This document shows positions 10,114 to 64,000 of a DNA stretch of 64,000 nt, piece after piece. Origin of the DNA: Artemia franciscana. Its lineage: Eukaryota > Arthropoda > Branchiopoda > Anostraca > Artemiidae. A program made the translations under genes and the position numbers. Position 1 is the stretch's first letter. Each line of letters begins with the position of its first letter. Location: contig NC_088863.1 of the NCBI RefSeq assembly GCF_032884065.1, positions 66,049,419 to 66,113,418 of the forward strand. The letters run 5' to 3'. A model generated the notes under the pieces. It saw only the letters and a list, made by a program, of their open reading frames with translations, made no database searches and was not told where the DNA came from.

Positions 10114-12090
10114 ATGAGATATATCAGTTTGAAAGTTAAAGGGGTTGACAACATTAGTAGTAAGGTACACACTGAAACCAAAAGTAGGCCGATACCAATT
10201 CATGTATCCGCCAAGATTCAAGATCATATTCTTTGCTCTCCCAATTTATCTGTTTCGACTGTTTCTGCACACGAAACAGAAAGCGATATAGACAACCTAC
10301 CAATTTCCTTTATGCTTTGTATTTCTCTTGCTACTAAACGTGGGAATCGTAGATGGTTTACCAGGTGAAATTGGAATAAGGCTAATTGGGCTCTTTATAT
10401 TTCTACCCTTACCACTTTTTTGTCTAGGATAAAATTTCCTTTTCAGCTACTTCGGGTTGGATCTAAATTTGTAAATGATAATAATTTTCTGAACAAATGT
10501 TATTTTGATATTATATCATGCATGAAGGAGGCTGAGAGGGTGGCTGTTCCCGAAGAACGTGTTAAATTTAATACGCGGAAGCCTGAATGGTCATGGGATC
10601 CGGGTCTAAAATCAGCGAAAAATAGAGCCAAATTTTGGCTACATGTTTGGGTTTCTTGCGAACGACCACGTAGTATTTCAGCTTAAAAAGAAACTAAATT
10701 AGAGTATAAAAAGTATTTACGGTCTGCAAAATCTAAAATTTGCAAATTCCCGTCAAGTAATTTAGATTGGAAAAATGTGATAAATTCAAATAAAATTCGA
10801 TTCAATAAAATTCAAGAATTCAAATAAATTTTGACCAATTTCATAAAATTCATAGAATTCAATAAAATTCATAGAATTCAAATAAAATTTGATTCAATAA
10901 AATTTAAGAATCCAAATAAATTTTGACCAATTTCATAAAATTCATAGAATTCAAATAAAATTTGACTCTTCGTCAAAAAGTAGCCCAATTAGTCCTGCTG
11001 CTTGGTGCAAATATTGCAACCTGATTTTTAACACTATAGGCCATTTTGTTCATGCTACTTTTATGAGGCTTCTTATTTCTGCGCTTCCCGTATCACTCCG
11101 CCAGAACCAGATCCTCCCAGTTAATTTAGTTTCGGTGGCACAAGCTATAAAGAAGCTTAAGGCTAGCTCTAATGATTGTGATGGTATAAGTGCCAAACAC
11201 CTAAATGTAGATTGATTGTCCAGCTCTAGTCCAACATTTACAACTTCTGTTTCAATTGTGCTTATGCACCTCGGTTGTGCCTGAAAGTTTTGTGTGCGGA
11301 ACAGCTACTTCGATCCTGAAAAAAGGAAAGATTCCAACTGAGTGTGCATCTTACATGCCAATAACGGTTTCCTGCAATTTAAGCAAAAAATTTGAGCATC
11401 TTCCCCTCCCATCAGTTAATTCTTCGGTATATTTGGTGAAAATCAGATTGAGTTTTCAGCTGGGGTAGGTTGCCAGCAGGCCCATTGAATTTTGGCTAAT
11501 GTTCTTACTGAGGCTACTAAAAAGGATTCGAGTTATATTTATGTGCTTTGGATCTCTCCAAAGCCTTTGACACCGTAACGCATTCCCAAGCTATCTTTTC
11601 CCTTTTTAGTCACGGTATCAACATATCGGTAGTTTTTCTTCTTAGATATTGGTATTCAAATTCCTTTTTGCGGATTAAAACGGATATGAGGGTCTCAGAA
11701 AGTAAAATTCCAGTACGACGTGGGATCCGGTAAGGTGCTGTCCTCTCCCCCTCTATTTTCAAACTTTGTATATCATCTGTCTTTTCCTCTATCCCACCTA
11801 CTTGTATCCTTAATTCTGTAAATATTTCTTATCTTGCCTATGCAGATGATATTCTTTTGATCAGTAGGACTAAAAAAGGGCTTTCTTTGTTTGTTTCAAC
11901 AGTAGCATCTAAACTTCATGCGATTGGAGTGTTTCTTAATCTTTCAAAGTGTGAATATCTTTCATTTAATAGTAATATCACTACTCTAATCTGTGGATCT
12001 TTTTTTATCCCGTCGGTTTCTTCATTTCGGTGACTGGGGATTAATGTTCGCGAACAAATGTTGCCGCAACAACTCCCGCTGCCCATGCGA
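10114..12090 (+). mobile_element. LINE relic: endonuclease C-terminus, linker and reverse transcriptase
   Basis: Forward-strand non-LTR retrotransposon, read through several frame breaks. 10114-10368 ends the endonuclease (ESDIDNLPISF, where D-H-L-P is expected, so the catalytic His is changed to Asn). 10420-10686 is the linker (EWSWDPGLKSAKNRAKFWLHVW). 11130-11210 begins the RT (VAQAIKKLKASSNDCDGISAKHL). 11256-11468 continues it (FVCGTATSILKKGKIPTECASYMPITVSCNLSKKFEHL). 11548-11733 has the first catalytic block (DLSKAFDTVTHSQAI). The second block reads AYADDILLISRTKKG near 11840. RT motifs are in the normal order and YADD is intact. The element is inactive because of stops, and is interrupted at 10786-10970 by an AT-rich minisatellite. 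Confidence 0.8.
10786..10972. repeat. AT-rich minisatellite (AATAAAATTCATAGAATTCA-like)
   Basis: A composite tandem repeat. A unit containing GATTCAATAAAATT, AATAAATTTTGACCAATTTC and ATAAAATTCATAGAATTC is repeated about twice with small changes, and is itself built from shorter AATAAAATT(C/T) words. It sits between the linker and RT coding parts of the LINE, so it expanded or inserted after the LINE lost function. Confidence 0.85.
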
Positions 12091-29430: not shown

Positions 29431-29542
29431 TTATATCCTGGGAAGATAACTTCGAAGACCACACTGCCTTTCCATGACGAAAGTAAAACAGTTCAAAATA
29501 GGGATGATTCCTTTTTATTGACAGTGAATAGATATAAAATTA

Positions 29543-29593
29543 TTTAACTGGATATTTCGAACACATATACAGTGTTCATCATCAGCAGTAAAA
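29543..29593 (-). ncRNA. Hammerhead ribozyme-like motif (left arm, reverse strand)
   Basis: The mirror copy of the right-arm motif, identical through core, stem II and stem I on the minus strand (for instance ACTG at 29547-29550 and CAGT at 29586-29589 on the plus strand). A transcript of either strand across the element would carry one motif in sense orientation, while the other arm competes to fold it into a long hairpin. Confidence 0.6.
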
Positions 29594-29629
29594 CTGAAAA
29601 AAAAACTGTAAAGCAGTTCATCATCAAAG

Positions 29630-29680
29630 TTTTACTGCTGATGATGAACACTGTATATGTGTTCGAAATATCCAGTTAAA
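29630..29680 (+). ncRNA. Hammerhead ribozyme-like motif (right arm)
   Basis: Core CTGATGA at 29638-29644; stem II GAACAC (29646-29651) pairs perfectly with GTGTTC (29659-29664); then GAAA at 29665-29668. A two-base loop TA, closed by A29668 and T29671, gives the minimal helix III. The expected cleavage is after C29672. Stem I pairs ACTG (29634-29637) with CAGT (29673-29676), continuing with TTT/AAA after one mismatch. One extra base (T29645) sits between the core and stem II. Minimal helix III is a described feature of hammerheads in PLEs. Activity is inferred, not shown. Confidence 0.65.
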
Positions 29681-29759
29681 TAATTTTATATCTATTCACT
29701 GTCAATAAAAAGGTGTCATCCCTATTTTGAACTGTTTTACTTTCGTTATATCCTGGGAA

Positions 29760-32949: not shown

Positions 32950-33553
32950 TTAGAGAGTCAAGATCCTCCTGTAAAAGTTGCACATCGTTTGGTCTCGCAC
33001 TGGTAGATTGAGTTTTACATCATCCGCGAACATCTTGACAGCAGAAGGCTGAACAGAGGAAGGAAGATCATTAATAAATAAACAAAATAAAATTGGACCC
33101 AGGCAGCTACCCTGGGGGACTCCACTTAACACATCAATTGAGGATGACATAGCTTCACCAACAACAACCTGCTGAGTTCGTCCATTTAGATAATCAGCAA
33201 TAAATGCAATTGTTTTTTTTACCCAATTTATAAGCTGCACAATTTTTAAGAAGGGTGGGGATTGAGACTTTGTCGAATGCCTTCGAAAAGTTGATGTAAA
33301 TGCAGTCAAAGGGTATGGCTAAATAGGCAAAACATTGAAAGTCCAAAATAACCTCAAGAAGCTGAGTATCACAAGACCTATTTTTTCGAAAACCATGCTG
33401 AGCAGGATTCCAAAGATGATTTCCGTCAAAATACCTTTGAACGCGTGAAACAATCAACTTTTCCATCACTCGGCAAAAAATAGACGTAATTGAAATTGGC
33501 CGATAGTTTTTAAAATCCGACTTGGAGCAACTTTTATGAAGTGACTTTACCAA
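32950..33553 (-). pseudogene. LINE reverse-transcriptase domain, two overlapping frames
   Basis: Frames 33553-33194 and 33309-32950 overlap. The first carries NYRPISITSIFCRVMEKLIVSRVQ, AQHGFRKNRSCDTQLLEV and YINFSKAFDKVSIPTLL (catalytic Asp of AFD). The second carries IADYLNGRTQQVVV, GVPQGSCLGPILFCLFIND and the FADD box. One frameshift near 33.2-33.3 kb separates the two catalytic parts. Confidence 0.82.
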
Positions 33554-34395
33554 GGCCTTCTTCCACCCTGACGGACACAGTCTGACGGACCGTCTATATC
33601 CGGCGCTTTAGACGTATCCAATTTTATAAGAATAGTATAAACTTCAGTCAATGAGAAATCTGAATCATCAAATGGAACAAGAATGTCCGGCGACGCAATG
33701 GACTCTACTTGAGATGCCAAATTAACTTCATTTGAATGAATTGGCTGTGTTTTAAGAAAAACCGAAGAAAAAATTTGGTTAAAAATAAGAGCCTTCTCAG
33801 AATCACTATCAATCTTTTAGTGTGTATCCTGATGTGTGAACGTAGATGTAGATGGTGCAAGGTTAGGCTTATTCCTATTTACATTTTGCCAAAATATTTT
33901 AGGTGATTTGGTGCTTGAGTGAATAATACGCGACTCGAGCTCTTCACGATTAGCCCTAAGAAGCCGAGTGACCTTGTTTCTCGCTAGTGAGTACGCATGC
34001 CATTCACCTGAATCGTCTTGCAACTGAGTATCCAAATGCCCTTGTCTGACTACTTTACTATGTCGTGACTCAATATAAGACCGCCAAAGACTATTTTTTT
34101 CACTTATTGCTTGGAGTATGTGTCTTGGAAGTTTAGGATTATTTCTGCGACCGGGAAAATTCTTCACCAAAGGAACAAATTTATCCCTACATTCCCTCAA
34201 AACTTTTTTTTTTACAAAATCAAACGCGGTGTCCGGAGAAACATGATTATTTTTAAGATCATACATGATATTAATGGACAAAAAAATTGTCGCATTGATT
34301 CATAATCGGCTTTAGCATAATCATGCCGATAAAACTCAAAACCTCTCTGTTGAGCATCAATATTCATAAAAATATCTAACACAACGTGATCACTT

Positions 34396-35019
34396 TTACC
34401 TAAAGGCGGACGGATATCTATACTCAAAATATCGTCGATTGACTTGGTAATAACCAGATCTAAAATCGATGGAAAAAGCATCATTCCTGGCTCGAGTTGG
34501 CCTATCAGTATGTTGGTATAAGTACAGATCATCCAATCTATCTAAAAATTGCTGCTCATACGATGAAGTGGACAAACTTATACTATGCACACTCCAATCT
34601 ATCAAAGGTAAATTGAAATCACCTAGAATAAGGAACTTTGAACCACGACCAACAAGACGAGAAATACACGCTAGAATATTGGCATTATTAACTGGACTCG
34701 ATAAATCCACAGTGGGACTACGATAAAAAGCTGCAATACACATGTAAGTACTATGATAAAGCAATTTAACATCAACCAAAAGACACTCCGACGCTGAGTC
34801 TACTAACGAATCAACAACCACAGAAAACTTAATAGAACCATGAATATAAATACAAATCCCTCTTTTAGCTGAATTATTAGGTACTAAATTATATTGTGGT
34901 AGCGGCTGAAAAAAAATAGACGGGTCACTGAAATGTTTTGGTAAAACTTCGGTAACAACAACTAAATGTGGTGTACATTGCTTTATTAGCTCACTAAACT
35001 CCCCCCGTATAGATGACAT
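34396..35019 (-). pseudogene. LINE endonuclease domain, main open frame
   Basis: 207 codons of exonuclease-endonuclease-phosphatase type. LVVVTEVLPKHF holds the catalytic Glu position, RGICIYIHGSIKFSVV and CIAAFYRSPTVD the central strands, and FLILGDFNLPLIDW the Asp/Asn pair. A frameshift then moves the last block (LDLVITKSID..., GKSDHVV) to the frame 34532-34212. The enzyme nicks target DNA in target-primed reverse transcription. The frame break would truncate it before the terminal His. Confidence 0.8.
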
Positions 35020-35084
35020 GCAGTCTGCATTTGTTTATGTCACCAAAAATTTATCACTCAGACACTTCGACTTTTTTAGGGAGT

Positions 35085-40759: not shown

Positions 40760-41668
40760 TCCAGATAAGATAGGACGATGAAATTGGCAGGCGTATCAGG
40801 GACCATACCAGATTAAATTAAAAATAATTGTTTCCTTGATTCGATCATTCGGAAGGGAGTGGAGGGTGGGCATTCCATTTGAAATTTTTTTTTAGAAAAA
40901 ATGGGTATTTTTAACTTACAATCGGCGGATCGGATCTTAATGAAATTTTATATTAAGAAGGATATCGTGTCTCAGAGCTCTTATTTTAAATCCTGACTAG
41001 ATCTGGCGACATTGGGGAAGTTGGAGGGGGAAGCCTGAAATCTTGGAAAACGCTTAGAGTGGAGGGATCGGGATGAAACTTGGTTGGAAAGATAAGCACA
41101 AGTCCTAGATACGTGATTGACATAACCGGATTGGCTCTGCGCTCTTTGGGGGAGTTGGGGGGGGGGGGTTAATTCTGAAAAATAAGAAAAAATGAGGTAT
41201 TTTTAACTTACAAAGCAGTCATCGGACCTTAGTGAATTTTCATATTTAGAAGGACCTCATAGCTCAAATCCCTTGTTTTAAATCCCGAACAGATCCAGTG
41301 GCATTGGGGGGAGTTAGAGGGGGGAACCAGAAATCTTTGAAAACGCTTAGAGTGGAGATATCGTGTTGATACTTGGTTGGAAGAATAAGTACAAGTCCTA
41401 GACACGTGATTGACATAGCCAGACTGGATTGGCTCTCTTTGGGGTGTTTGGAGGGGGGAAACAGAAATCTTGGAAACCGGAAATATTGGAAAACGCGTAG
41501 AGTGGAGAGATCAGGATGAAACTTAATTGGAAGAATAAGCGCAAGTTCTAGATACGTAATTGACATAACTGAACCGGATCCGCTCGCTTTGGGGGAGTTG
41601 GGAGGATTTCCAGTGCTTTGGCGAGTTCGGTGCTTATGGACATGCTAGGACGATGAAAATTGGTAGGC
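40760..41668. repeat. Tandem-like repeat interrupted by the PLE (left part)
   Basis: Units of roughly 300 bp each contain CGGATCTTAATGAAATTT-like, CTCAGAGCTCTTATTTTAAATCC, AGATCTGG(T/C)GACATTGGGG, GAAAACGCTTAGAGTGGAG and GATACGTGATTGACATAACC. Copies begin near 40920, 41210 and 41450 (shorter). The same array resumes at 44750-45640 on the other side of the PLE, so the PLE inserted into it. The minus-strand ORF 41264-41566 is a by-product of repetition. Confidence 0.8.
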
Positions 41669-41669
41669 T

Positions 41670-41965
41670 AATGAAAGTTCTTAAGCCGAACTGGCCAGAC
41701 ATGACAATAAACAACAAAGAGAGATAAAACTCCACATAAAAAAAACCTCAAACGAGACTACGGCCAGTAAAGAGGAAAAACTAAAACAACGCGGATATTT
41801 CGCCTGTATCCTAACTAGGCGTCCTCAGCACAAGATAAAAAGAAAAAAACACTAAACTAAAAACAAATAAAACCACCACCAATAATAATAAATACAATTG
41901 TCGCTACTGATCCACGTAGGGAAAAGAAGCTATTAGAGTTACTTCAATGAGAACATCAAAGCAAC
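41670..41965 (-). repeat. PLE terminal repeat (pLTR), downstream copy
   Basis: About 296 bp, matching 44410-44694 with scattered substitutions. On the minus strand it lies 3' of the coding region. It includes the hammerhead-like motif (41787-41836) and the 34-bp terminal segment (41932-41965). The repeat's minus-strand 3' end is at 41670, next to host repeat DNA. Confidence 0.85.
41787..41836 (-). ncRNA. Hammerhead ribozyme-like motif in downstream pLTR
   Basis: Read on the minus strand: GTG, then CTGAGGA core, stem II GCC...GGC (a further C and G flank it), GAAA, a TA loop, then TC, with expected cleavage before CGCG. Stem I can pair GTG with CGC using one G-U wobble. It has the same minimal helix III (A-TA-T) and the same extra base after the core as the motif at 29.6 kb. 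Core bases are intact. Confidence 0.6.
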
Positions 41966-42088
41966 TGTGGAAAAATCATGAAAATTGAAACTTAGTTAAC
42001 TCTTCTGTTGCAAAATAATCCTCTTGTAAGCTAATATTGAAGCAAGTCTTTTTGGTCTAGTAGGTAATCTTGTCCCCTGGTGATTGTG

Positions 42089-42460
42089 TTAAATTTTAAT
42101 TCCCTTATTGATTATTGGTTCATTTTTCAAAAGAAAATCATAAATTGGGTCAATATTTAAATTCCCTATGTCTCTATTTATTGAAAAATTAGCAAATATA
42201 TGTTTTCTAATTTCTATAGCCTCCCTCACCCACTGAGAAAAACCTCTATCATTAGAAATAGCTGTAGCCTCATCAAATTGTATAAAATGTTCAGGATGAA
42301 AGAATGTATGTTCAGATAGAGCCGAAACAAAAGTTTCAGGTGGCTTTCTTAATTGTAGGGTTTTTTCTATTGAGTTGCAATGCTCAATAAATCTTTCAGT
42401 AAATTGTTGGTGAGTTCTACCAATATAAAACTTTCCACAAGAACAAGGGATTTTATACAC
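42089..42460 (-). pseudogene. PLE GIY-YIG endonuclease domain
   Basis: 123 codons. MYKIPCSCGKFYIGRTHQQFTERFIEHCNSIEK contains the GIY-YIG-type pair (YKI...FYIG), followed by the conserved Arg region and the Glu/His of the R-x-x-E-H block. The downstream part (VREAIEIRKHIFANFSINRDIG) has the conserved E-A-I-x-I-R segment. In PLEs this domain makes the nick that primes integration. It ends at a stop 120-130 bp before the pLTR, so it is probably the true protein end. The start shown is only the first Met after an upstream frame break. Confidence 0.85.
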
Positions 42461-42568
42461 CCCACTAACTAAATCTCCCCGGGTTAAATCCTTCCCAGAA
42501 TTAAGAAAACTGCCTAATGGTCTCGCTGATTAGAAACAAGTATCAATGTTATTTTTACCTAAAATTCG

Positions 42569-42970
42569 TTAAAGCATCTCCCCCAAAGTAGTTACATAAG
42601 GCAAAGAAATGAACCTTTTCGGCAAGTTTAATTCTGTACACTGTGAAACCCCAATAACCCTATTGTTGTGTTTAATGCGTCTATTTTTTATTATTTTATC
42701 AATGAATTTAATCGGGTAACTATTACAAAAAAAAACATCCCTCAAATACAAGAATTCAGAATCTAAAAACTCCTGGGAACAAATTCTGAAAGCTCTATCC
42801 ACCATTGCAATCACAACCCCTCGTTTTACTGAAACAGGGTGGCACGAGTGAAAGTTCAAATACCTATCACTGTGTATAGGCTTTCTATATACTGAAAAAA
42901 GTAAATCGAAATCACTTTTAATCAATAAGATAACAAAATAAGGTAGTTTGTCATTTTCTTCGAACTCCAC
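42569..42970 (-). pseudogene. PLE post-RT (thumb/connector) region
   Basis: 133 codons: LPYFVILLIKSDFDLLFSVYRKPIHSDRYLNFHSCHPVSVKRGVVIAMVDRAFRICS. The VYRKPxHxDRYLxxxSxHPxSxKRGV block lies just after the RT catalytic region in PLE proteins. It is separated from the FMDD motif (near 43060) by a frame break and from GIY-YIG by a stop-containing gap of about 110 bp. Confidence 0.82.
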
Positions 42971-43044
42971 TGTAAGTTTTATATTTTTGTCAAAACTAAA
43001 TGTTCATGGAAAAGGTCTAAAGACTCTAAACCGTGTTTCCAAAT

Positions 43045-43693
43045 GCAAACCACATCATCCATGAATCTGCCCCAGAAACAAGGGGAGAGCCTAAAACTGT
43101 GTATAGCGGAGGTTTCAATAGATTGAAACCTCGAAGGGGAGAGAATGTTCATTTGCAAGGATAACCAACTTCATAATGACTTCAATCTCCAAACTAGCCA
43201 TGGTCACATCTTGTATCAAATCAAAGTGCTTTTGTAATTTAATCCTTGATATATCTTCGGACTTTTTCACGTTACGATTTGTATACATGGACACCACATC
43301 AAAACTACAGAGAATTGAATTCTCCTCCAATGTGAAATTTTTTAACTTATTAGTAAGATCAGTGGAATTTTTTATGTATGATTTTTGTGTTCCTAAGAGT
43401 GGACGCAATGCCACTGATAACCACTTTCCCAATTTTGCCACTGGTGATGAGAAAGTTGATATAATGGGACGGAGGGGGACTCCCGTCTTATGGATTTTGG
43501 GTAGACCAAAGATCTTTGGTGCGGAACAACCTCTTGGATAAAAGTTATTATAAAGTTGTGGGGTAATGTGTAAATTATTTTTCAGTGACTCCAATTCCTT
43601 TCTTATCGACTTTACATATTTATCTCTAAGATCAAAATCCAATTTTTTGTAAATAGTGGTATCCGAAATGATTGTATTTACGATCATAATCAT
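43045..43693 (-). pseudogene. PLE reverse transcriptase
   Basis: The frame 43693-43115 reads DLRDKYVKSIRKELESLKNN..., then APKIFGLPKIHKTGVPLRPIISTFSSPVAKLGKWLS (the hallmark GLPKxHK and LRPIxS block), SILCSFDVVSMYTNRNV (catalytic SFDVVSMYTN, first Asp), and EVIMKLVILANEHSLPFEVSIY. The catalytic pair follows in another frame as CFWGRFMDDVVCIWKHGLESL near 43040-43082 (F-M-D-D). The M-G-S-P-L-S-P block expected between them is not visible and is probably deleted or unreadable. The domain copies RNA into DNA; this copy cannot. Confidence 0.85.
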
Positions 43694-44148
43694 CAGTGTC
43701 CATAATTACAATAGTATTTGCCCTAGTGTTATATCATTTTCAATTTTTCTCATGTTAAAACCCTTAAGTTTCCTTACGATTTCAGCTCTAAGCTCTTGAG
43801 GAGCCTCGACTTTATCAATAGAAGCCATGATTCCTTACTCTACCTTAGAAATTATTTTTGAATAAGAAATTGGTGTTTGAAAACAAAATCTAAAACCCTT
43901 CGACAAAACTGCCTCTTGTTGACTACTAAGAGGTTTAGATGATAAATTCTTAGTGACAGGACCCAGACAAAAACAAGGATAAAAAGTATCCGAATCCTAG
44001 AACTTTTCAAACAAAAGTCTATTGAACTTGTCGACCAAACGAACCTTTGACAAATGGAAATCATGGTGAAAAGATCTAACGGCCATTTCCTTAATTCTCA
44101 GAAAAATGTAAGATTGAAGGTAATTCCTCAAAAAGTTTTTGACAAAAT

Positions 44149-44493
44149 TTAAGTCTTTGGACAACTTAAAACGTCTTTCTTTTTGCTCGAAGTCATGTGA
44201 TTTAAAGCCATGAGGCTTAATTTGTTTTTTAATTTTGATCTATTTTCAGTACCAAAGTGGGTATTGATTCTAAAAGATTTAGGAATCACTGATTCCTTCT
44301 TGCAATTTTTTAATAAAATTTGCTGATTTAACAAATTTGCATGTTTTTTTTTAACCAAGGAAAAATAATAATTGACAGAAGCGGCTAATTGTTGCCCGTA
44401 AGCTTGACGAATGAAAGTTCTTAAGCCGAACTGGCCAGACATGACAATAAAGAACAAAGGGAAATAAAACTCCACACAAAAAAAAAATCTCAA
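44149..44493 (-). pseudogene. PLE N-terminal region
   Basis: 114 codons starting inside the upstream pLTR (MRFFFCVEFYFPLF...MSGQFGLRTFIRQAYG). The later part, YYFSLVKKKHANLLNQQILLKNCKKESVIPKSFRIN, is the conserved N-terminal block of PLE proteins (L-x-x-C-x-x-x-x-V-I-P-K-x-x-R). The real start may be the Met at about 44439 (MSGQFG), which would place translation at the pLTR edge. The frame breaks before the RT. Confidence 0.65.
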
Positions 44494-44694
44494 ACGAGAC
44501 TAAGGCCAGTAGAAAGGAAAGACTAAAACAACGCGGAAATGTCGCCTGTATCCAAACTAGGCGTCCTCAGCACAAGATAAAAAGAAAAAACACTAAACTG
44601 AAAACAAATAAAACCACCACCAATTATAATAAATACAATTGTCGCTACTGATCCACGTAGGGAAAAGAAACTATTAGAGTTACTTCAATGAGAA
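44410..44694 (-). repeat. PLE terminal repeat (pLTR), upstream copy
   Basis: About 285 bp aligning with 41670-41950. It contains the hammerhead-like motif (44528-44576) and, at 44673-44694, a 22-bp segment whose inverted copy sits at 44729-44750. The two pLTRs differ by roughly a dozen changes over 280 bp, so they have diverged since insertion. Confidence 0.85.
44528..44576 (-). ncRNA. Decayed hammerhead ribozyme-like motif in upstream pLTR
   Basis: On the minus strand the CTGAGGA core, GCC...GGC stem II and following bases match the downstream pLTR motif. However, GAAA is changed to GACA, altering a core adenine required for catalysis in hammerheads. This copy is expected to be inactive. 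Confidence 0.55.
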
Positions 44695-44716
44695 AATTAT
44701 AGTTCAAAGCAATTTA

Positions 44717-44750
44717 GTTGCTTTGATGTTCTCATTGAAGTAACTCTAAT
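44717..44750 (+). repeat. 34-bp inverted terminal segment of the PLE
   Basis: A perfect reverse complement of 41932-41965. Its first 22 bp (from the outer end) also pair with 44673-44694, giving a terminal hairpin with a 22-34-bp loop. A 34-bp inverted segment is known from Penelope of Drosophila virilis. Confidence 0.85.
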
Positions 44751-45640
44751 TGACCTGCACAAATTGACTCGATAACAGTCGTTTCCCCGATTCGACTAAC
44801 TGGGGGGCTGGAGGGAGCGGAAAAATTAAAAAAAAAGATGTATTTTTAACTTACGAATAGGTGATCGGATCTTAATGAAATTTGATGTTTAGAAGGACTC
44901 GTGTCTTAGAGCTTTTATTTTAAATCCCGACCGCATCTGGTGATATTGGGGGGAGTTGGAGAGGGAAACGGGAAATCTTGGAAAATGCTTAGAGTGGAGA
45001 GATCGGGATGAAACTTGGTGGGAAGAATAAGCACAAGTCCTAGATACGTGATTGACATAACCAGACTGAATCTGCTTTCTTTGGGGGGATTGGGGGGGGG
45101 GTGTTAATTCGGAAAAATTAGAAAAATTGATGTATTTTTGGCTTACGAGCGGGTGTCCGGATCTTAATGAATTTTCATTTTTGGAAGGAACTCATGTATA
45201 AGAGATCCTGACCAGATCTGGTGACATTGGGGGGGATTTGGAGGGGGAAACCGGAAATCTCGGAAATTGCTTAGAGTGAAGAGATCGAAATGAAACTTGG
45301 TGGGTAGAATAAGCAAATATCGAAGATTGGTTATTGACGTAACCGGACTGGATCCACTCTCTTTGGGGGAGTTAGGGGGGTCCAGTGCTTTGGGGAGTTC
45401 AGTGCTTCTGGACTTGCTAGGACGATGAAAATTGTAGGTGTGTCAGAGACCTGTACAAATTGACTTGATAAAGTCGCTTTCCCCGATTCGACCATCTGGG
45501 TGGCTGAAGGGAGAGGGAAAATTAGAAAAAATGAGGTGTTTTTAACTTACGAGTAGGTGATCGGATCTTAATGAAATTTGATATTTAGAAGGACCTTGTG
45601 TCTCAGAGCTCTTATTTCAAATCCCGACCGGCATGAAGCT
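44750..45640. repeat. Tandem-like repeat (right part of the interrupted array)
   Basis: Further units of the array at 40760-41668 begin near 44860, 45160 and 45560 (GGATCTTAATGAAATTTGAT, CTTAGAGCTTTTATTTTAAATCC, GACATTGGGG, GCTTAGAGTG(G/A)AGAGATCG). ACCTGCACAAATTGACTCG at 44752 matches ACCTGTACAAATTGACTTG in the undisturbed copy at 45450, locating the PLE insertion point. Confidence 0.8.
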
Positions 45641-53344: not shown

Positions 53345-54140
53345 CCTTGTTCCGGGTAATATGAGGGTCTTTTAATCCAACGAGGCATAGTTACTAGACC
53401 TTTTGACTATTTTGAACCAAATGGCTGTCTTAAAATGTTGTGAAGAAGGCTATCTAAAACGGGTTAGGGGGCTGGTTGCCCTTAACTGCTTTCAATAGTC
53501 CCTCGACATACCCTAAAATTTTTAAGTTAATGTTCTCAGTCCTTTCTGAAATGTTTACGTGTTAGAATCTGACGGAAGAAGAGACGGGAATTCGTCTTTC
53601 AGAAGTAGTTACGAGAAGAGCAAACTTGATCATTTATAGTATTTCACTGGTGAATGAAGGACCTTCATTAGCGGTCAATAGTAGTCAAGATATGATTAAG
53701 GTCGGATTTCCAGCTACGGATCCACAATTTGAAAAATTTCTTAGGCTTTTCCATTTCGAAGGTTACTGCCTAGTGATTTTGTGATTTGCCTAGGCTAGGT
53801 ATTATGTTCTTCTTAACTGTTCAAATAGCCCCGGTGTAGGCGTAACATCACGCCAGAGGCAACACTGTAGTGTTGTCTGAAGTAAGGAGAAATAATTACA
53901 AGTATAATCTGTAGTACCTTCATCTAGTTTTATTAAAGCCTCTAAAATATTCTTGGAACCATGGTGCACGTTAGTCCAGCCGGAAGATGTTTCTTGAGCA
54001 GGGAATTGTGCGTCAAAGTATGTTATTAGGCCATAATTTTTATGCCTTCTTGAAAATGTGAATTGAGACCCCCTACTCCCCTCCAACTAACTACCACCTA
54101 TATCTAACTAACTATTTAGGTACTATATAGTATTTACTTT
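53345..54140. other. Upstream region of the LRR gene
   Basis: No gene is called. 53440-53500 is a diverged copy of the GGCTGGTTGCCCT repeat. A minus-strand ORF (54086-53802, 94 codons: FSRRHKNYGLITYFDAQFPAQETSSGWTNVHHGSKNILEALIKLDEG) has a balanced composition but belongs to no family I know. It may be a repeat-derived reading frame. A promoter for the LRR gene could lie here or further upstream; no clear TATA/initiator pair stands out. Confidence 0.35.
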
Positions 54141-54161
54141 CAGGTTTTGTACTCGTATATA

Positions 54162-54344
54162 ATGGTTTCCCCCCCAGTGTGCTGGACCCAGATGCTAATT
54201 TGGTTTATAGTACTAGATGCAACAGGGTCTACAGTGGGTGCAGTGTGTCCTGGTGCCTGTTATTGCGATGATATCAGATTGGAGGTTTTTTGTGACAATG
54301 CAGGGCTAGATGTCATTCCTATCACCCTTAACCCTTATGTTCAG
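54162..54344 (+). CDS. LRR protein gene, exon with signal peptide and LRRNT domain
   Basis: Coding exon of an extracellular or membrane leucine-rich-repeat protein. From the ATG at 54162: MVSPPVCWTQMLIWFIVLDATGSTVGA is a plausible signal peptide. CPGACYCDDIRLEVFCDNAGLDVIPITLNPYVQ is an LRR N-terminal cap (C-x3-C-x-C-x9-C) running into the first repeat. The exon ends in phase 0 at a consensus donor (CAG|GTAAGC, 54344/54345). A TTTACTTTCAG acceptor lies just upstream (54133-54143), so a 5' UTR exon is likely. The next exon is at 55746. The cap followed by I-x-x-L-x-P-x-(V/I) resembles insect cell-surface LRR proteins of the capricious/tartan kind, but too little is present to name it. Confidence 0.8.
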
Positions 54345-54920
54345 GTAAGCGGGCCTTTATTGAAAACATAAAAACAAGTTTGTTTTCAAATTGTTCTTTT
54401 TTGATTATGAAAAATTTGAGACTATTTATAAATAAAATTAAATAATAATTTTGGGTCATTTAGTCAAACTGATTTAGCCCTGAGGATGAATGGTATCGAA
54501 AAGATAAAAAAAAGAAAAGAACTGGGTCAAAGGTTTGTTTGAATACAAAAAAAAAAAAATACAGTGACTAGTACGCTCGATAGAAACGAATGTGAAACCC
54601 GTTACTAACTATTAAATCGTAAAATTAAGTTGAAAGCGAATTATAGCGAACACCCCGCTGGAAAAAAAGCAACGAAAAGCATTATTCACAACTTATCTTT
54701 TTTCCTTTTTTCTCAGTGATTTGTTTCCTGTGACACCCCCGAGGACAACCGTTACTTTTTATGGGAGGTAGTGAATCATTATTTTTATGTTATTTGTGCG
54801 TTCTATTAAAAATCCTCCCTTCCTAAAAAAAAATTATTTAATTCACTGATTTATTGTCTAAGAGTGAAATACCCAGAAAACATACAATGGTAAAAAATTA
54901 CCAAGCAACGCACAAGAGCA

Positions 54921-55327
54921 ATTTATAATTTTATCCTGCTCTTTAAAAGAACTTGCAACCATCCATTCTGCAGCCAACATTTAAAGCTCAGGATGTGTTG
55001 TTTTGACTCAATTACTTTAAATTGGATTACTTTAATCCAATTTATCAATTTAATCAATTTATCCAATTTAATCAATTTATAATTTTATCCTGCTCTTTGA
55101 AAGAACTTGCAACCATCCATTCTGCTGCCAACATTTAAAGCTCAGGATGTGTTGTTTTGACTCAATTACTTTAAATTGGATTACTTTAATCCAATTTATC
55201 AATTTAATCAATTTATCCAATTTAATCAATTTATAATTTTATCCTGCTCTTTGAAAGAACTTGCAACCATCCATTCTGCGGCCAACATTTAAAGCTCAGG
55301 ATGTGTTGTTTTGACTCAATTACTTTA
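54921..55327 (+). repeat. 154-bp tandem repeat, about 2.6 copies
   Basis: ATTTATAATTTTATCCTGCT starts at 54921, 55075 and 55229, giving an exact 154-bp period twice. Each unit has GAACTTGCAACCATCCATTC, GCTCAGGATGTGTTGTTTTG and a palindromic TAAATTGGATTACTTTAATCCAATTTA-like segment (listed here as words only). Copies differ at a few bases (CTTTAAAAG/CTTTGAAAG; CTGCAGCC/CTGCTGCC/CTGCGGCC). Confidence 0.95.
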
Positions 55328-55473
55328 CCTGAAGTAAAATATTAGTGAATTTCAATTGATTTACACAAGGGGTAGGTTTCCTAGTTTTTATTTTTTTGTG
55401 AGAATTTAAACATACCCCACAAGACATAGTGTTATTCAATTGTTATCATTCTTTTATTTTTGGGCACCGTCAA

Positions 55474-55565
55474 GTGCCGTTTTACCGAGTGGTTAGCATG
55501 CTAGACTTGAAATCCTTTGTTCGTGTGGACAAGGTTTCGTGTCCTGTTGTAGCTTTTGTCCTTTT
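55474..55565 (+). mobile_element. tRNA-Ser-like sequence (SINE head or tRNA pseudogene)
   Basis: TTACCGAGTGGTTAGCATGC resembles the D-arm/A box of tRNA-Ser (GGCCGAGTGGTTAA). CTAGACTTGAAATCC is an anticodon arm with TGA as anticodon. A variable-arm-like stretch follows, then AAGGTTTCGTGTCCTG, a B-box/T-arm. The acceptor stem does not pair well and the T-loop is altered, so it is not a working tRNA. It is followed by TTTTGTCCTTTTTT. It probably heads a SINE. Confidence 0.6.
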
Positions 55566-55745
55566 TTAACAATTTAGCTTGGAGGATTGAAATATACTGA
55601 AACTATTTAGTTTTGTTATTATGATCGTTCTGTTTGTTGGCGCCTCCCTTTCAGCGAATTATAACCTTGCATTTGCATTTCCTATTTGGATTTTTTTTTT
55701 TCTTTTCACTTGTAAAAGTTAATTTTTTTATTATGTTTTTTTTAG

Positions 55746-55837
55746 CGGCTCGCACTTCGCAACAATAGGATTAAGAGTATTGACAATGGTCTTCGGGTGT
55801 ACCAAGATTTGTTATATGCGGACCTCTCACGGAACAA
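55746..55837 (+). CDS. LRR protein gene, second coding exon (leucine-rich repeats)
   Basis: Follows a strong acceptor (polypyrimidine tract, TTTTTTTAG|C at 55745). It continues the frame of the first exon in phase 0: RLALRNNRIKSIDNGLRVYQDLLYADLSRN, i.e. LRR consensus LxLxxNxIxxIxxGLxxxxxLxxLDLSxN. It ends at AACAA|GTAAGT (55837/55838), leaving phase 2. Joined, the two exons encode 91 complete codons. No further LRR exon is visible before the window end; the large inverted repeat begins only 160 bp downstream. The rest of the gene must lie beyond 64 kb, unless the palindrome has destroyed it. Confidence 0.8.
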
Positions 55838-56109
55838 GTAAGTAACAATTTTTGTTAATGTTGTTCTAAATGGTAAAGAGCGACATTAATTTTGAAAGAA
55901 TATTCTAAAAGTAAAAAGTAGCAATAATTTTGAAAGAAATCATTGATCCTTCGGAGATTTTTTTTAACAGAGGGTAAAGAAGGACAATGGAACCTAGAAA
56001 GCTTTATTAAACTTCACAAAATAGAGCCCCATCCTTCAATTACGGTTACAAGTCCTTAAATGGTCACACTCTCAAGCTCCTTAAACGGTCCCATTCCGCT
56101 TTTTATTCT

Positions 56110-56148
<39 letters not shown>

Positions 56149-56589
56149 AACAACACAAGTTCTTCAAAGAAAAGTAATAACCTACATTAAATAAAGTCAA
56201 GCAGAAAAGCAGGAACTAAAAACATGCAGAAATAAATTCAATTAATTACTGAAGCTTAAAACGAACATAAATTACTAAATAAATGAAACTTGAAGGCAAA
56301 GGAAATTCCAATAAATAATCAAGCCAAGCTTAAAGCGAACAGAAATAATCCAAAAAGACTAGCACTGGCACTTTACCAAAAGTGGTTTGCACTGTACTGA
56401 AAGCAACTATTATCTTGAGCTGTGCTTTTTATTGGTCATAACATCCACAAAAAAGAACGAAAATAACCATAATAACCAAGTTACTATAAAGACCTAATGA
56501 ATGAAGATGAGGAGTTTAATATATCTCGATGTTCATTCCTGAAAGTCTCAGGAATTTTAGATACATATAAAAGTTGTGAAAGAGAAAAC

Positions 56590-57720
56590 GTTTAAAATGT
56601 ATTTAGTTTTCAGTAAAGAAGAAATGACGTTTTGGTCTTTCTAAAGCACAAAGGGCGTTAGACCTACTCCTGTTTGTAGTAATTTTTGTTCGCGTTGGGT
56701 TCCATTCGTTTATTGGTAACGATTTATGTTCATTTTACGCTTGAATTATTATTTGATTTAATTTCTACTTGCTTTGGTTTAATGCACATTTTTTTTTCTT
56801 TAAAAAACCTTTTTGGTGCACTACGGTTTTCTGAATTACTTTCTGACAGTTTTTAATAGGCAATGCTTTTTTTATAGGTTAATAAAAGGAATATTTGCGA
56901 AGCTTTTATTTGCTTTCCTCCTTAAGAAAAAAAAATTTTCACTTGTCATTTTTCTTTTGGAAAATTTTTACAACAAATTCTAAAAATAGTTGTATTCAAA
57001 AGTATTCAATCAATAGATTGCAAAGATCTCCTATAGGGCCAAGGCCATTCTGGCCCCCATCAAGTTACAACCCTGAGTAAGAAAAATAGTAATCAACCAT
57101 CCTCTCAACTTGCCCTGAAAGATTAATATTTTGTTCAGCATACCCCTCTACATACCCTGAAAGTTTCTACCCAAAGCCATTCCCAAGATATAGTAGATAT
57201 GTCCTTTTGAGGACCGTAAATGCCCACAATATATTTTGATTTAGTACCAACCCCAACGACATACCCTGAAAGTTCACACCATGAAACGTTCTACAGATAC
57301 CATTTCGACAATCTAGTCATACATAGTGCCTTTAAGTTTAGTTCAACGTCTCGCACAACTTTCCCCGACAGTTTCAAATTGATACCCTATTCCGTTTCTG
57401 AGACATTGCATATATATCATTTTGACAACCTGGATGTACTTAAACTCTTGTGAATTAGATCAATTCTAGTTGTAGCAGCAGTTGCAGTCGCAGTCGCAAG
57501 CAATCAGAGCCGTGAATCTAATCACAAGTAATGGCAGTTATAAGTAGTCACCTTGGCAACTAGTCGCAGTTCGTAGTCACAGTTGCAAGTAGTCGTAGTC
57601 CCAAGTAGTTACAATTGTAGTTGCAGTCGCAGAAACAAGTAGTCTCATTCACAGTAATAGTAGTCCTGAAAGTTTCAGGTTAATAACTTAAGCAATTCGT
57701 AAGATATTGCACACACACCG
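56590..57720 (+). repeat. TAG-rich interspersed repeat family inside the left arm
   Basis: Matches 48930-50400. The segment TTTTCAGTAAAGAAGAAATGACGTTTTGG parallels the CAGTAAAGTGCTGG start there. ATACCCTGAAAGTTTC and GATACCCTATTCCG blocks follow, and then an AGTCGCAGTTGCA-like minisatellite at 57460-57670. The same elements in reverse lie at 61190-62330. Confidence 0.75.
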
Positions 57721-58504
57721 TTTTAATAACCTTATACGACCTTTTATTTCATAAAAACGAAAAAAAAAGAATGAAAAGAAATAAAAATAAACAATCTTTT
57801 GGTGACTACATTCAAAAGTACTGAGACTTCCAAGAACGAATATCAATATATGGTAATTGTCAATCTATCATTTGTTCTTTTTTTTTTGTAACCTTGGTTA
57901 AAAGGTTCTACGACAACTCCTCCCGTGCTAAGTGGTCTGAACGAAACAACAACAATAACAATAAAACAAAACAAAACAATAACAAATAAAGCCCATTTCG
58001 CCTTTCACTTAGGTACCACCCAATGATACTGCAGAATTTAAGGTAAAAAAGAACATGGAAAATAAGTAGGTTGAGCAAGTCATTAAAGTTATCAAATTTA
58101 TTTGCACATATTTTGCGAAAACAGCGCACGGATACATTTCAACTTTAGTGCTCAGTTGTTAAAGATACGGTTTTTGACCAACAGGAATACGTTTGAAAGT
58201 AATTAAATAATTTTACATTAATTTTTAGAAAATTTCAGCACAAGTTCTTATTGACCATGTTTATTATATTTTTTTGGCTTTGTTAATGAAAAAAAACAAC
58301 TATTACAAAAACTATATTTGTTTAATAGGCATCCTGATTTTTTTAATAGACATACTGAACACATGAAACGAAAGTTTCCTAATATTTGAGCAATGAGACC
58401 TCTGGTTGCCTGTACTGGCTAGACTGGAAAGTTGAGGGCCACAGTAACATTTCTACATAGCAAGTAAAGGAGTAATAAAATACTAATCTTTCTAGAATTA
58501 CACT

Positions 58505-58775
58505 GCATAATTTTTTTCGGCCTCATTTAGCAAGAGAAATTATTATGTTTTCGAATATAGGCCAGTTCAAAAAGTTTGAGCTTAGTGGGCCCAACTCCCC
58601 TGGCTATACTCGTGCAAGAGACCAAGTAAGAACTAGTAAGAATTTTTTTTCGGCCTCATTTTGCAATAGAAATTATTATGTTTTCGAACATAGGTCAGTT
58701 CAAAAACTTTGAGCTTAGTGGGCTCAACTCCCCTGGCTATACTCGTGCATGAGACCAAGTAAGAACTAGAAAAAC
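58505..58775 (+). repeat. About 130-bp tandem duplication within the arm
   Basis: TTTTTTTCGGCCTCATTT(A/T)GCAA...GCTTAGTGGGC(C/T)CAACTCCCCTGG...GAGACCAAGTAAGAACTAG occurs twice. The opposite arm carries the same pair (about 60160-60420), so the duplication existed before the arms were copied. Confidence 0.85.
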
Positions 58776-59002
58776 TTGCACTACAAACATGCCTTTAGTG
58801 AATCAACTATGGTTTCTCACAAACATATAAAAAAGAAAGTCTTCAGACCGATTCACTAGTTTAAAATTCTTACAAGGTTATCTGCAATTTCATTTGGTTA
58901 TAAAGCTATATAATAGTCAGAAATGTCATATAATAGTTCGAACTTATATCGAACAAAAATAAACTATCAATGAATACTTGAAACCTAAACAAATAGAAAT
59001 TA

Positions 59003-59925
59003 AAAGGAATGACCAAGTCAAAATTCAAACGAACGGAAATTTTCAAGATTTTTGCCTCCTAAGCCTTCTAAATACTACAGCATCATTTTTACTACACTGA
59101 AAACAATTTGGGTAAAGATTAAGGAGAAGGACACATTTGAAGGAAACCCTAAAAAATTCTTTTTAATACAATCTAACTATTTTAATTCTATCAGTAAACT
59201 AAAATTCTAACAAAACTATTTTAATACAATCATAAATATTACTTATTTCACTTAATCCCCCCTCACAATGAAGCAATCGAAAGCTTACTGTATATTTTAC
59301 TCATTTATTACAATAGCAAGCACTGATTAAAAAAAATACACCGTAAAATAAATGTTTTTGTTTTTAATGGGTGTTTTGGACCAAAGGGGTCCAAAACACA
59401 ACCTATTGAAATACAAAGTAGTCCAATAGGGTTAAAATAATCAAAAAACCAAGTATTGAACTTCCCAGTCTCAGAAGTGGTATACGCAGATTGGCACAAT
59501 CGCTTTTAAAGAGGCAGGTAGTACATACAAAATACACAATTAGTATACACCGTTATTTGGTCACTATCTTGTATACAGGGAGACACTATCGTGCCATCTA
59601 TTTTATTTTCCTATTGTACCAGTCACCAGTTGCATCCCGACTTTAGGTCCTGAAGTTTGCGATCTGCTACCCTGATTTTAGATCCCAAACAGACTCGGCG
59701 TGGATACCAAAGACCTAATTTTGTGAGGCCCATCTTTTATACAAGACATTGTCACATACGTCAGATAAATTTCGAAGTAATAATAAAAGAGTTTAATTTA
59801 AATCCTTGGGATCATTGACATACGGCATCAACTGATATCATACCGTGTAAGTTGATGCATTAATACCACCTAGCACCCATTAAACGAAAATAGTACATTA
59901 AAACAGACCCTTCAAGCGCAAGAAA
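59003..59925. other. Spacer (loop) of the giant inverted repeat
   Basis: 923 bp of single-copy sequence between the arms. It contains a small perfect hairpin, GTGTTTTGGACC/GGTCCAAAACAC, at 59371-59399. No ORF beyond 63 codons and no recognisable domain is present. CTTGTATAC occurs near 59570, as in the 19.8-kb repeat. Confidence 0.8.
59371..59399. repeat. 12-bp perfect hairpin in the spacer
   Basis: GTGTTTTGGACC (59371-59382) and GGTCCAAAACAC (59388-59399) around a 5-base loop. It is a stable small stem-loop at the centre of the palindrome. Confidence 0.85.
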
Positions 59926-62782
59926 TAATTTCTATTTGTTTAGGTTTCAAGTATTCATTGATAGTTTATTTTTGTTCGATATAAGTTCGAACTATTATAT
60001 GACATTTCTGACTATTATATAGCTTTATAACCAAATGAAATTGCAGATAACCTTGTAAGAATTTTAAACTAGTGAATCGGTCTGAAGACTTTCTTTTTTA
60101 TATGTTTGTGAGAAACCATAGTTGATTCACTAAAGGCATGTTTGTAGTGCAAGTTTTTCTAGTTCTTACTTGGTCTCATGCACGAGTATAGCCAGGGGAG
60201 TTGAGCCCACTAAGCTCAAAGTTTTTGAACTGACCTATATTCGAAAACATAATAATTTCTCTTGCAAAATGAGGCCGAAAAAAAAATCTTACTAGTTCTT
60301 ACTTGGTCTCATGCACGAGTATAGCCAGGGGAGTTGGGCCCACTAAGCTCAAACTTTTTGAACTGGCCTATATTCGAAAACATAATAATTTCTCTTGCTA
60401 AATGAGGCCGAAAAAAATTATGCAGTGTAATTCTAGAAAGATTAGTATTTTATAACTCCTTTACTTGCTATGTAGAAATGTTACTGTGGCCCTCAACTTT
60501 CCAGTCTAGCCAGTACAGGCAACCAGAGGTCTCATTGCTCAAATATTTGGAAACTTTCGTTTCATGTGTTCAGTATGTCTATTAAAAAAAAATCAGGATG
60601 CCTATTAAACAAATATAGTTTTTGTAATAGTTGTTTTTTTTCATTAACAAAGCCAAAAAAATATAATAAACATGGTCAATAAGAACTTGTGCTGAAATTT
60701 TCTAAAAATTAATTTAAAATTATTTAATTACTTTCAAACGTATTCCTGTTGGTCAAAAACCGTATCTTTAACAACTGAGCACTAAAGTTGAAATGTATCC
60801 GTGCGCTGTTTTCGCAAAATATGTGCAAATAAATTTGATAACTTTAATGACTTGCTCAACCTACTTATTTTCCATGTTCTTTTTTACCTTAAATTCTGCA
60901 GTATCATTGGGTGGTACCTAAGTGAAAGGCGAAATGGGCTTTATTTGTTATTGTTTTGTTTTGTTTTATTGTTATTGTTGTTGTTTCGTTCAGGCCACTT
61001 AGCACGGGAGGAGTTGTCGTAGAACCTTTTAACCAAGATTACAAAAAAAAAGAACAAATGAAATGTAGATTGACAATTACCATATATTGATATTCGTTCT
61101 TGGAAGTCTCAGTACTTTTGAATGTAGTCACCAAAAGATTGTTTATTTTTATTTCTTTTCATTCTTTTTTTTCGTTTTTATGAAATAAAAGGGCGTATAA
61201 GGTTATTAAAACGGTGTGTGTGCAATATCTTACGAATTGCTTAAGTTAGTAACCTGAAACTTTCAGGACTACTATTACTGTGAATGAGACTACTTGTTTC
61301 TGCGACTGCAACTACAATTGTTACTACTTGGGACTACGACTACTTGCAACTGTGACTACGAACTGCGACTAGTTGCCAAGGTGACTACTTATAACTGCCA
61401 TTACTTGTGATTAGATTCGTGGCTCTGATTGCTTGCAACTGCGACTGCAACTGCTGCTATAACTAGAATTGATCTAATTCACAAGAGTTTAAGTGCATCC
61501 AGGTTGTCAAAATGATATGTATGCAATGTCTCAGAAACGGAATAGGGTATCAATTTGAAACTGTCGGGGAAAGTTGTGCGAGAAGTTGAATAAACTTAAA
61601 GGCACTATGTATGACTAGATTGTCGAAATGGTATCTGTAGAACGTTTCATGGTGTGAACTTTCATGGTATGTCGTTGGGGTTGGTACTAAATCAAAATAT
61701 ATTGTGGGCATTTACGGTCCTCAAAAGGACATATCTACTATATCTTGGGAATGGCTTTGGGTAGAAACTTTCAGGGTATGTAGAGGGGTATGCTGAACAA
61801 AATATTAATCTTTCAGGGCAAGTTGAGAGGATGGTTGATTACTATTTTTCTTACTCAGGGTTGTAACTTGATGGGGGCCAGAATGGCCTTGGCCCTATAG
61901 GAGATCTTTGCAATCTATTGATTGAATACTTTTGAATACAACTATTTTTAGAATTTGTTGTAAAAATTTTCCAAAAGAAAAATGACAAGTGAAAATTTTT
62001 TTTTCTTAAGGAGGAAAGCAAATAAAAGCTTCGCAAATATTCCTTTTATTAACCTATAAAAAAAGCATTGCCTATTAAAAACGAACAGAAAGTAATTCAG
62101 AAAACCGTAGTGCACCAAAAAGGTTTTTTAAAGAAAAAAAAATGTGCATTAAACCAAAGCAAGTAGAAATTAAATCAAATAATAATTCAAGCGTAAAATG
62201 AACATAAATCGTTACCAATAAACGAATGGAACCCAACGCGAACAAAAATTACTACAAACAGGAGTAGGTCTAACGCCCTTTGTGCTTTAGAAAGACCAAA
62301 ACGTCATTTCTTCTTTACTGAAAACTAAATACATTTTAAACGTTTTCTCTTTCACAACTTTTATATGTATCTAAAATTCCTGAGACTTTCAGGAATGAAC
62401 ATCGAGATATATTAAACTCCTCATCTTCATTCATTAGGTCTTTATAGTAACTTGGTTATTATGGTTATTTTCGTTCTTTTTTGTGGATGTTATGACCAAT
62501 AAAAAGCACAGCTCAAGATAATAGTTGCTTTCAGTACAGTGCAAACCACTTTTGGTAAAGTGCCAGTGCTAGTCTTTTTGGATTATTTCTGTTCGCTTTA
62601 AGCTTGGCTTGATTATTTATTGGAATTTCCTTTGCCTTTAAGTTTCATTTATTTAGTAATTTATGTTCGTTTTAAGCTTCAGTAATTAATTGAATTTATT
62701 TCTGCATGTTTTTAGTTCCTGCTTTTCTGCTTGACTTTATTTAATGTAGGTTATTACTTTTCTTTGAAGAACTTGTGTTGTT

Positions 62783-62817
<35 letters not shown>

Positions 62818-62930
62818 AGAATAAAAAGAGGAATGGGACCGTTTAAGGAGCTTGAGAGTGTGACCATTTAAGGACTTGTAACCGTAATTGAAGGATGGGG
62901 CTCTATTTTGTGAAGTTTAATAAAGCTTTC
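59926..62930 (-). repeat. Right arm of the giant inverted repeat (about 3.0 kb)
   Basis: Begins TAATTTCTATTTG (reverse complement of the left arm end) and ends GTTTAATAAAGCTTTC. The length is almost the same as the left arm (3005 versus 3006 bp). It contains the mirror image of all left-arm features, including a T tract at 62786-62814 that corresponds to the A tract at 56113-56147. The flanks differ immediately outside (left ...GGAACCTA, right TCGTTTAACTG...), so the boundaries are sharp. Confidence 0.95.
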
Positions 62931-64000
62931 TCGTTTAACTGTTAGACTTTGGATAAAAGGTTTTTGATCACTTTCCATATGGTTTAATAAACGGAAATTG
63001 TGTTAGCTAAGCTGAAAATTAAAAACAAAGTTTTAGCTGGGACAGTTGCGTAGTATAGTGAAACCTACATTATATTGGGAGATCTAGTAAGAAGTGTGGC
63101 GACCTTACCTTTGTAATTCCATTTTTTGTTACACGTTTCTTCTTCGTCAATTGACAAAATAATCTGTAGTAATCCTTATTGCCTTTATACGGCCCTCTAA
63201 AACCCTCTCGCTAAGATTGCTACTGAACGTCCCCCTATTTCAATAGGATGGAGGAATCGCAGCTTTAAGTAATTTTCAGAATTGCACTTATTATTGTACT
63301 AATGCACATAATTAACCTTATTGGTATCACAACCTTACCTTTGTATTTCAATTTTCCGTTACGCGTTTCTTCTTCCTCGATTTTTTATTGAAAAATTTTC
63401 TTTAGCACCCCTTTTTGCCTTACCTATATACAGCCCTCCAAAATTATCTCGCTAAGATTGCTACTGGGCGTTTCCCTATTTCAATGTAGAGGGGAATCTC
63501 AGCTTTGAGTACTTCTCAGAATTTTACCTATTATTGTACTTATGCACTTAGACAAATTGTCCTTTCTTTAGAAGTGCCCAAATCTTATAGACTTTCCCCT
63601 TTCATCCCAGACCGTGGCTGACAATTCATAGTTTTTCTGCTTTACTAATAGAGACAGATTCGGAGAAATATTCTTCCGCTAAGAGATATCACTGGAAACA
63701 GTTCAATATTAAGCTTAAGCTATGAAAAAGCTTGCCTTCACTCCCCTATTTTGGGTATAATTCTGTTTTCTATATTTGCTCTAGCTTGTATTTTGATACG
63801 AATAATATTACAAACAGAAGTTGGGGTTGTTTTGTCAATAATATGTAATATGAATAAAATGGAAAATCAGAGAAGAGTGAAATAGTCAATACAAGAAAGA
63901 GTTCTAAAACTTGTGGAAATTTGATGATGCTTCGCTAACCATATTCAAGCCAATACCGTTGAATTCGTAAAGGGAAAAACGAAATCTGGGTTTATTGTAC
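62931..64000. other. Right flank; diverged 250-bp duplication, no exon seen
   Basis: About 63100-63300 and 63340-63540 are diverged copies of one unit (CCTTACCTTTGTA(A/T)TTC, CGTTTCTTCTTC, CTCGCTAAGATTGCTACT, TTTCAAT, TTATTGTACT(A/T)ATGCAC). No LRR exon or other gene is visible. Confidence 0.55.

Follow-up and report, generated by a model that had tools for sequence, protein, structure and literature searches.

A near-identical inverted repeat with 3-kb arms in a predicted intron of Artemia franciscana and the direction of its copying

Introduction

Hairpin-RNA genes and sex-chromosome palindromes may both start out as long inverted repeats. Among the closest described systems are human inverted duplications with a spacer between the copies. 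In one series, 21 sequenced junctions have spacers of 766 to 70,466 bp, 13 of the 21 carry 2 to 8 bp of inverted microhomology, 3 have homologous repeats and 5 have inserted bases, and the rearrangements go along with terminal deletions, translocations or rings (PMC3907307). In flies, according to another report, hairpin RNAs that are expressed attract the helicase MLE, and those of endogenous origin are a source of endo-siRNAs (PMC4710571).

Here, we describe an inverted repeat in Artemia franciscana that is a clean polarised case of the birth of such a structure: old repeats crossing one of its junctions separate the source from the copy. Among the matches listed for titles on Artemia assemblies, hairpin RNAs, sex-chromosome palindromes and inverted duplications or repeats, none concerned this locus, and the main text of PMC10827361 uses none of the terms palindrome, inverted repeat and satellite.

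Results

The window, that is, the whole stretch of DNA analysed, comprises 64,000 nt of A. franciscana (NC_088863.1, positions 66,049,419 to 66,113,418, forward strand). When the window was compared with itself by BLAST, 55996-59002 (3007 bp) matched 62931-59926 (3006 bp) on the opposite strand with 98.7% identity over 3013 columns (E=0). A sequence-only reading of the window had described a giant, almost identical inverted repeat with arms of about 3.0 kb, and this description was borne out. Its inner limits, 59002 and 59926, also stood, whereas the outer ends each lie 1 base further out than the 55997 and 62930 that it gave. The ends are sharp, with no matching base beyond either of them, and the outer flanks of the two arms are unlike each other. 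The arms enclose a spacer of 923 bp (59003-59925, + strand). In a search of the genome (1,270,528,402 bases in 6468 contigs), the spacer gave one full-length match, in agreement with the unique 0.92-kb spacer proposed earlier; the arms are thus near-identical, inverted and placed around an unduplicated sequence.

Global alignment of the arms, made on 55997-59002 and 59926-62930, revealed 25 substitutions in 2999 aligned bases (11 transitions and 14 transversions) and 6 indels, which corresponds to a Jukes-Cantor divergence of 0.84%. One of the 6 indels is in a homopolymer, which measures 33 nt on the left and 29 nt on the right; the 35 nt reported before for the left arm was not reproduced. 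A chance origin is impossible for 3 kb at 98.7% identity. In 264 kb around the window, searched with the low-complexity filter on, this was the sole pair, among the 11 inverted pairs listed, with a length of at least 300 bp, an identity of at least 85% and a spacer of less than 10 kb. The only assembly gap in the 264 kb is 225.5 kb to the right of the window start. The inverted repeat is confirmed as real in the assembly.

Elsewhere in the window, a palindrome of 276 columns (29474-29749, 91.7% identity) has almost no spacer and may be a fold-back element of small size. At 40892-45634, several copies of a repeat of about 280 bp, 78 to 94% alike and some of them in tandem, form a cluster, and old retrotransposon pieces with reverse transcriptase and endonuclease matches in Pfam are found at 11734-12030 (+) and 33197-35034 (-).

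The inverted repeat appears to reside in an intron of about 15 kb (about 55838-71113, window-relative) of a predicted leucine-rich-repeat gene on the + strand. Upstream of it, an open frame with an upstream exon and, by eye, a cysteine-containing leader (54120-54368) gave one genome match and no Pfam match, and a short leucine-rich-repeat exon-like stretch with splice-like borders was read by eye at 55746-55837. Beyond the window, leucine-rich-repeat exon-like stretches follow, with frames that score in Pfam as leucine-rich repeats, at about 71.1-71.4 kb and about 78.5-79.8 kb (window-relative), the latter with a membrane-spanning stretch recognised by eye. The exon-like stretches of one gene therefore continue on the same strand on either side of the inverted repeat. 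We also considered a second copy of the gene, i.e., a W copy or a haplotig, and rejected it: the upstream exon frame, the one frame searched for this purpose, matches one place only. According to the description of a female A. franciscana assembly, chromosome 1 is the Z chromosome and 62.5 to 70 Mb is Z-specific (PMC11492255); the inverted repeat is probably on the Z chromosome. Two further repeats lie in or near the exon-like stretches. Just upstream of the second one, 54919-55327 holds 2.7 copies (98%) of a 154-bp unit. At 71217-72230 (window-relative), a tandem duplication of 501 columns with 97.6% identity, its copies 513 bp apart, includes a portion of one of this predicted gene's leucine-rich-repeat exons and would be a recent partial exon duplication.

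These data bear on the possibility that the structure was produced by assembly or sequencing, either from a chimeric read or from two alleles of pooled animals joined in opposite orientation. The description of the likely source assembly gives DNA from 14 females, and a divergence of 0.8% is of a size possible between alleles. The same description names 20-kb size-selected PacBio libraries, and the single-copy spacer of 923 bp, the sharp and unlike flanks, the 25 substitutions and 6 indels between the arms, the intact strand and order of the gene on both sides and the lack of a nearby assembly gap all count against an artefact of this kind, which we regard as very improbable. The earlier opinion that a missed adapter is unlikely gains from the unique spacer, the unlike outer flanks and the same-strand exon-like stretches, which speak against a misjoin as well.

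Both arms contain older repeats. A 133-bp tandem duplication (58511-58772, + strand, left arm) is mirrored at 60156-60417, as the sequence-only reading had stated for both arms, and it predates the inverted copying. An old degenerate inverted repeat (56219-56775, + strand, left arm) with arms of 71 columns and 76% identity sits where dispersed relatives are numerous and is likewise mirrored in the near-identical right arm. No protein gene was seen in the arms: among frames of at least 70 amino acids, the longest stop-to-stop frame within an arm has 77. A search of 54000-64000 against Rfam returned one chance-level match (E 0.41), outside the arms, and a tRNA-type search of the whole window with ARAGORN returned none.

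Since the arms carry dispersed repeats, their relatives elsewhere in the genome could be used to ask which arm is the copy. The query for the left inner junction (58700-59300) gave 47 match rows from the best 40 of 226 candidates. After the self match, the right arm and two tandem-copy rows had been left out, 43 rows remained, not all of them independent, a few being close together in one place. Of these, 40 cover at least 13 nt on both sides of 59002, and the remaining 3 extend only 6 to 8 nt beyond it. The right inner junction (59650-60200) gave 33 rows with all 31 of 31 candidates scored; the self match and the left arm, together with two tandem-copy rows and three spacer-internal rows, were set aside, and not one of the remaining 26 crosses 59926. 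Upon realignment of 16 loci, which had been picked by their match to the right arm, 9 crossed the left inner junction and none the right. Over about its first 180 bp, the spacer carries on an old dispersed repeat of the left arm: the relative at C4:6191545-6191824 runs unbroken from the end of the arm into 181 nt of spacer, with C4:6191626-6191824 matching spacer positions 1 to 181. The outer junctions give no direction, since no relative crossing 55996 or 62931 was found among the scored matches to other places.

Because dispersed homologues cross the left inner junction and none cross the right, the left arm (+ strand) is taken as the original and the right arm (- strand) as the copy. Judged by these homologues, the left arm and the spacer form one continuous stretch of ancestral DNA, whereas the right arm is an inverted copy, inserted between 59925 and 62932, whose inner end falls within an old repeat. 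The proposal that a 3-kb block had been copied recently in inverted orientation is supported by this analysis, and the contrast of 40 of 43 with 0 of 26 junction-crossing rows adds a polarity to it.

The repeats in the arms, which include the small inverted repeat, and the location of the right arm's inner end within a repeat would also fit a transposable element of the fold-back or terminal-inverted-repeat type, consisting either of the complete inverted repeat or of a single arm. A 1001-bp arm query gave 56 match rows, of which 2 were near-identical, both at this locus, and the other 54 were 64 to 83% alike. Three arm queries detected no further near-identical copy among the best 40 candidates scored per query, and on the same scale (the best 40 candidates per query) matches of high identity were confined to these two places. 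Also, no target-site duplication of at least 5 bp flanks the structure as a whole or either of its arms, with three end pairs compared at offsets of 0 to 5, a test that duplications of 2 to 4 bp fall outside. Moreover, the repeats run on beyond the inner end of the left arm. We then compared the spacer end, the right flank and the left flank with the arm, the spacer and the opposite flank, and no homology was found; none of the eight junction alignments scored above shuffled sequence (P 0.24 to 0.92). That neither a target-site duplication of at least 5 bp nor junction homology was found speaks against a transposon. Transposon insertion was rejected because no such duplication and, among the scored places, no other near-identical copy came to light, and we give it next to no probability.

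Demonstrated are the structure itself, the polarity of the copying at the inner junction and the lack of a target-site duplication of at least 5 bp. The probable explanation is an inverted duplication with spacer that arose in a single germ-line event, through break repair with fold-back. The DNA would have broken at the site whose two sides today are 59925 and 62932. After resection, the left broken end would have folded back and primed near 59002 on its own strand, with the loop giving rise to the 923-bp spacer. From there, synthesis would have run backwards through about 3.0 kb of the intron as far as 55996, and its free end would then have been attached to the right side of the break, presumably by end joining. 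Afterwards, the arms would have diverged by about 0.8% through ordinary mutation. A single break with fold-back priming and end joining accounts for the source, the loop-like spacer and the inverted copy. In favour of a break-repair duplication, we also count the exon-like stretches of one gene on the same strand on both sides and the other recent local duplications in the neighbourhood, which are the one at 71217-72230 (97.6%) and another at 154414-155491 (97.0%, window-relative). The spacer of 923 bp is within the human range of 766 to 70,466 bp, which counts for a fold-back duplication as well. Against this reading count the human junctions, most of which carry microhomology, homologous repeats or inserted bases, the interstitial position of the event here, unlike the human series, and the outer junctions, which are silent on direction.

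The nearest rival is a double template switch during replication, in which synthesis would have proceeded to 59925, jumped strands at 59002, run back to 55996 and continued forward at 62932. It yields the same product with the same copying direction, and without the empty site the product is indistinguishable from that of fold-back repair. However, two switches are needed, and there is no detectable homology at either, so we consider this series of switches possible but unlikely. Switching guided by homology is out, since the eight junction alignments were no better than shuffled sequence.

The duplication looks fairly recent in evolutionary terms, given the divergence of 0.84%. Arthropod mutation rates are a few per billion per generation, and with such rates the divergence corresponds to an age on the order of a million generations. 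The sequence-only reading had offered as an alternative that the arms are kept identical by gene conversion. An older palindrome kept alike by arm-to-arm conversion would be compatible with any origin of the structure, and the probable location on the Z chromosome would suit it. The differences are unevenly spread, with 4 of 26 difference events in the outer 1269 bp and 22 of 26 beyond (P=0.004 at the chosen cut; P=0.04 for dispersion over ten bins). If the choice of the cut is allowed for, the split-point test gives P=0.07, and the longest clean run gives P=0.14; furthermore, a divergence of 0.8% requires no conversion. Gene conversion is thus weakly hinted at, and as the explanation for the likeness of the arms it is rather improbable.

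Discussion

Fold-back break repair would make the inverted repeat the outcome of an ordinary kind of genome rearrangement, which is not surprising in itself, and no function has to be assumed for the structure. Transcription of the host gene, if it occurs, would give a primary transcript with a 3-kb near-perfect hairpin that persists until splicing. In flies, Dicer-2 acts on hairpin RNAs. A hairpin-RNA role of the inverted repeat is possible but putative. A more specific form of this idea, that a newborn intronic hairpin, probably on the Z, serves as a substrate for Dicer-2 (giving endo-siRNAs), for ADAR or for an MLE-type helicase before a target relation has evolved, is a speculation to which we attach very little probability. 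There was little sign of a target in trans nearby: of 2986 21-mers from the arm, 20 match exactly elsewhere in the 264 kb, and 18 of these 20 are at the poly-A tract.

With endogenous hpRNA loci of flies that make endo-siRNAs (PMC4710571), the Artemia locus shares that any transcript would form a long hairpin; it differs in that no target of its arms was seen within 264 kb. Near-identical arms, a unique spacer and, probably, a sex chromosome as the location are features in common with sex-chromosome palindromes (PMC7023750, PMC3403216), from which the Artemia inverted repeat differs in being small and intronic, with no genes seen in its arms and with conversion between them only weakly hinted at. 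The human fold-back inverted duplications with a disomic spacer are far larger, reaching megabases in rows of the published table, whereas the Artemia copy is 3 kb and interstitial. What the two have in common is the architecture, an inverted copy next to a short unduplicated spacer, and the spacers are in the same size range.
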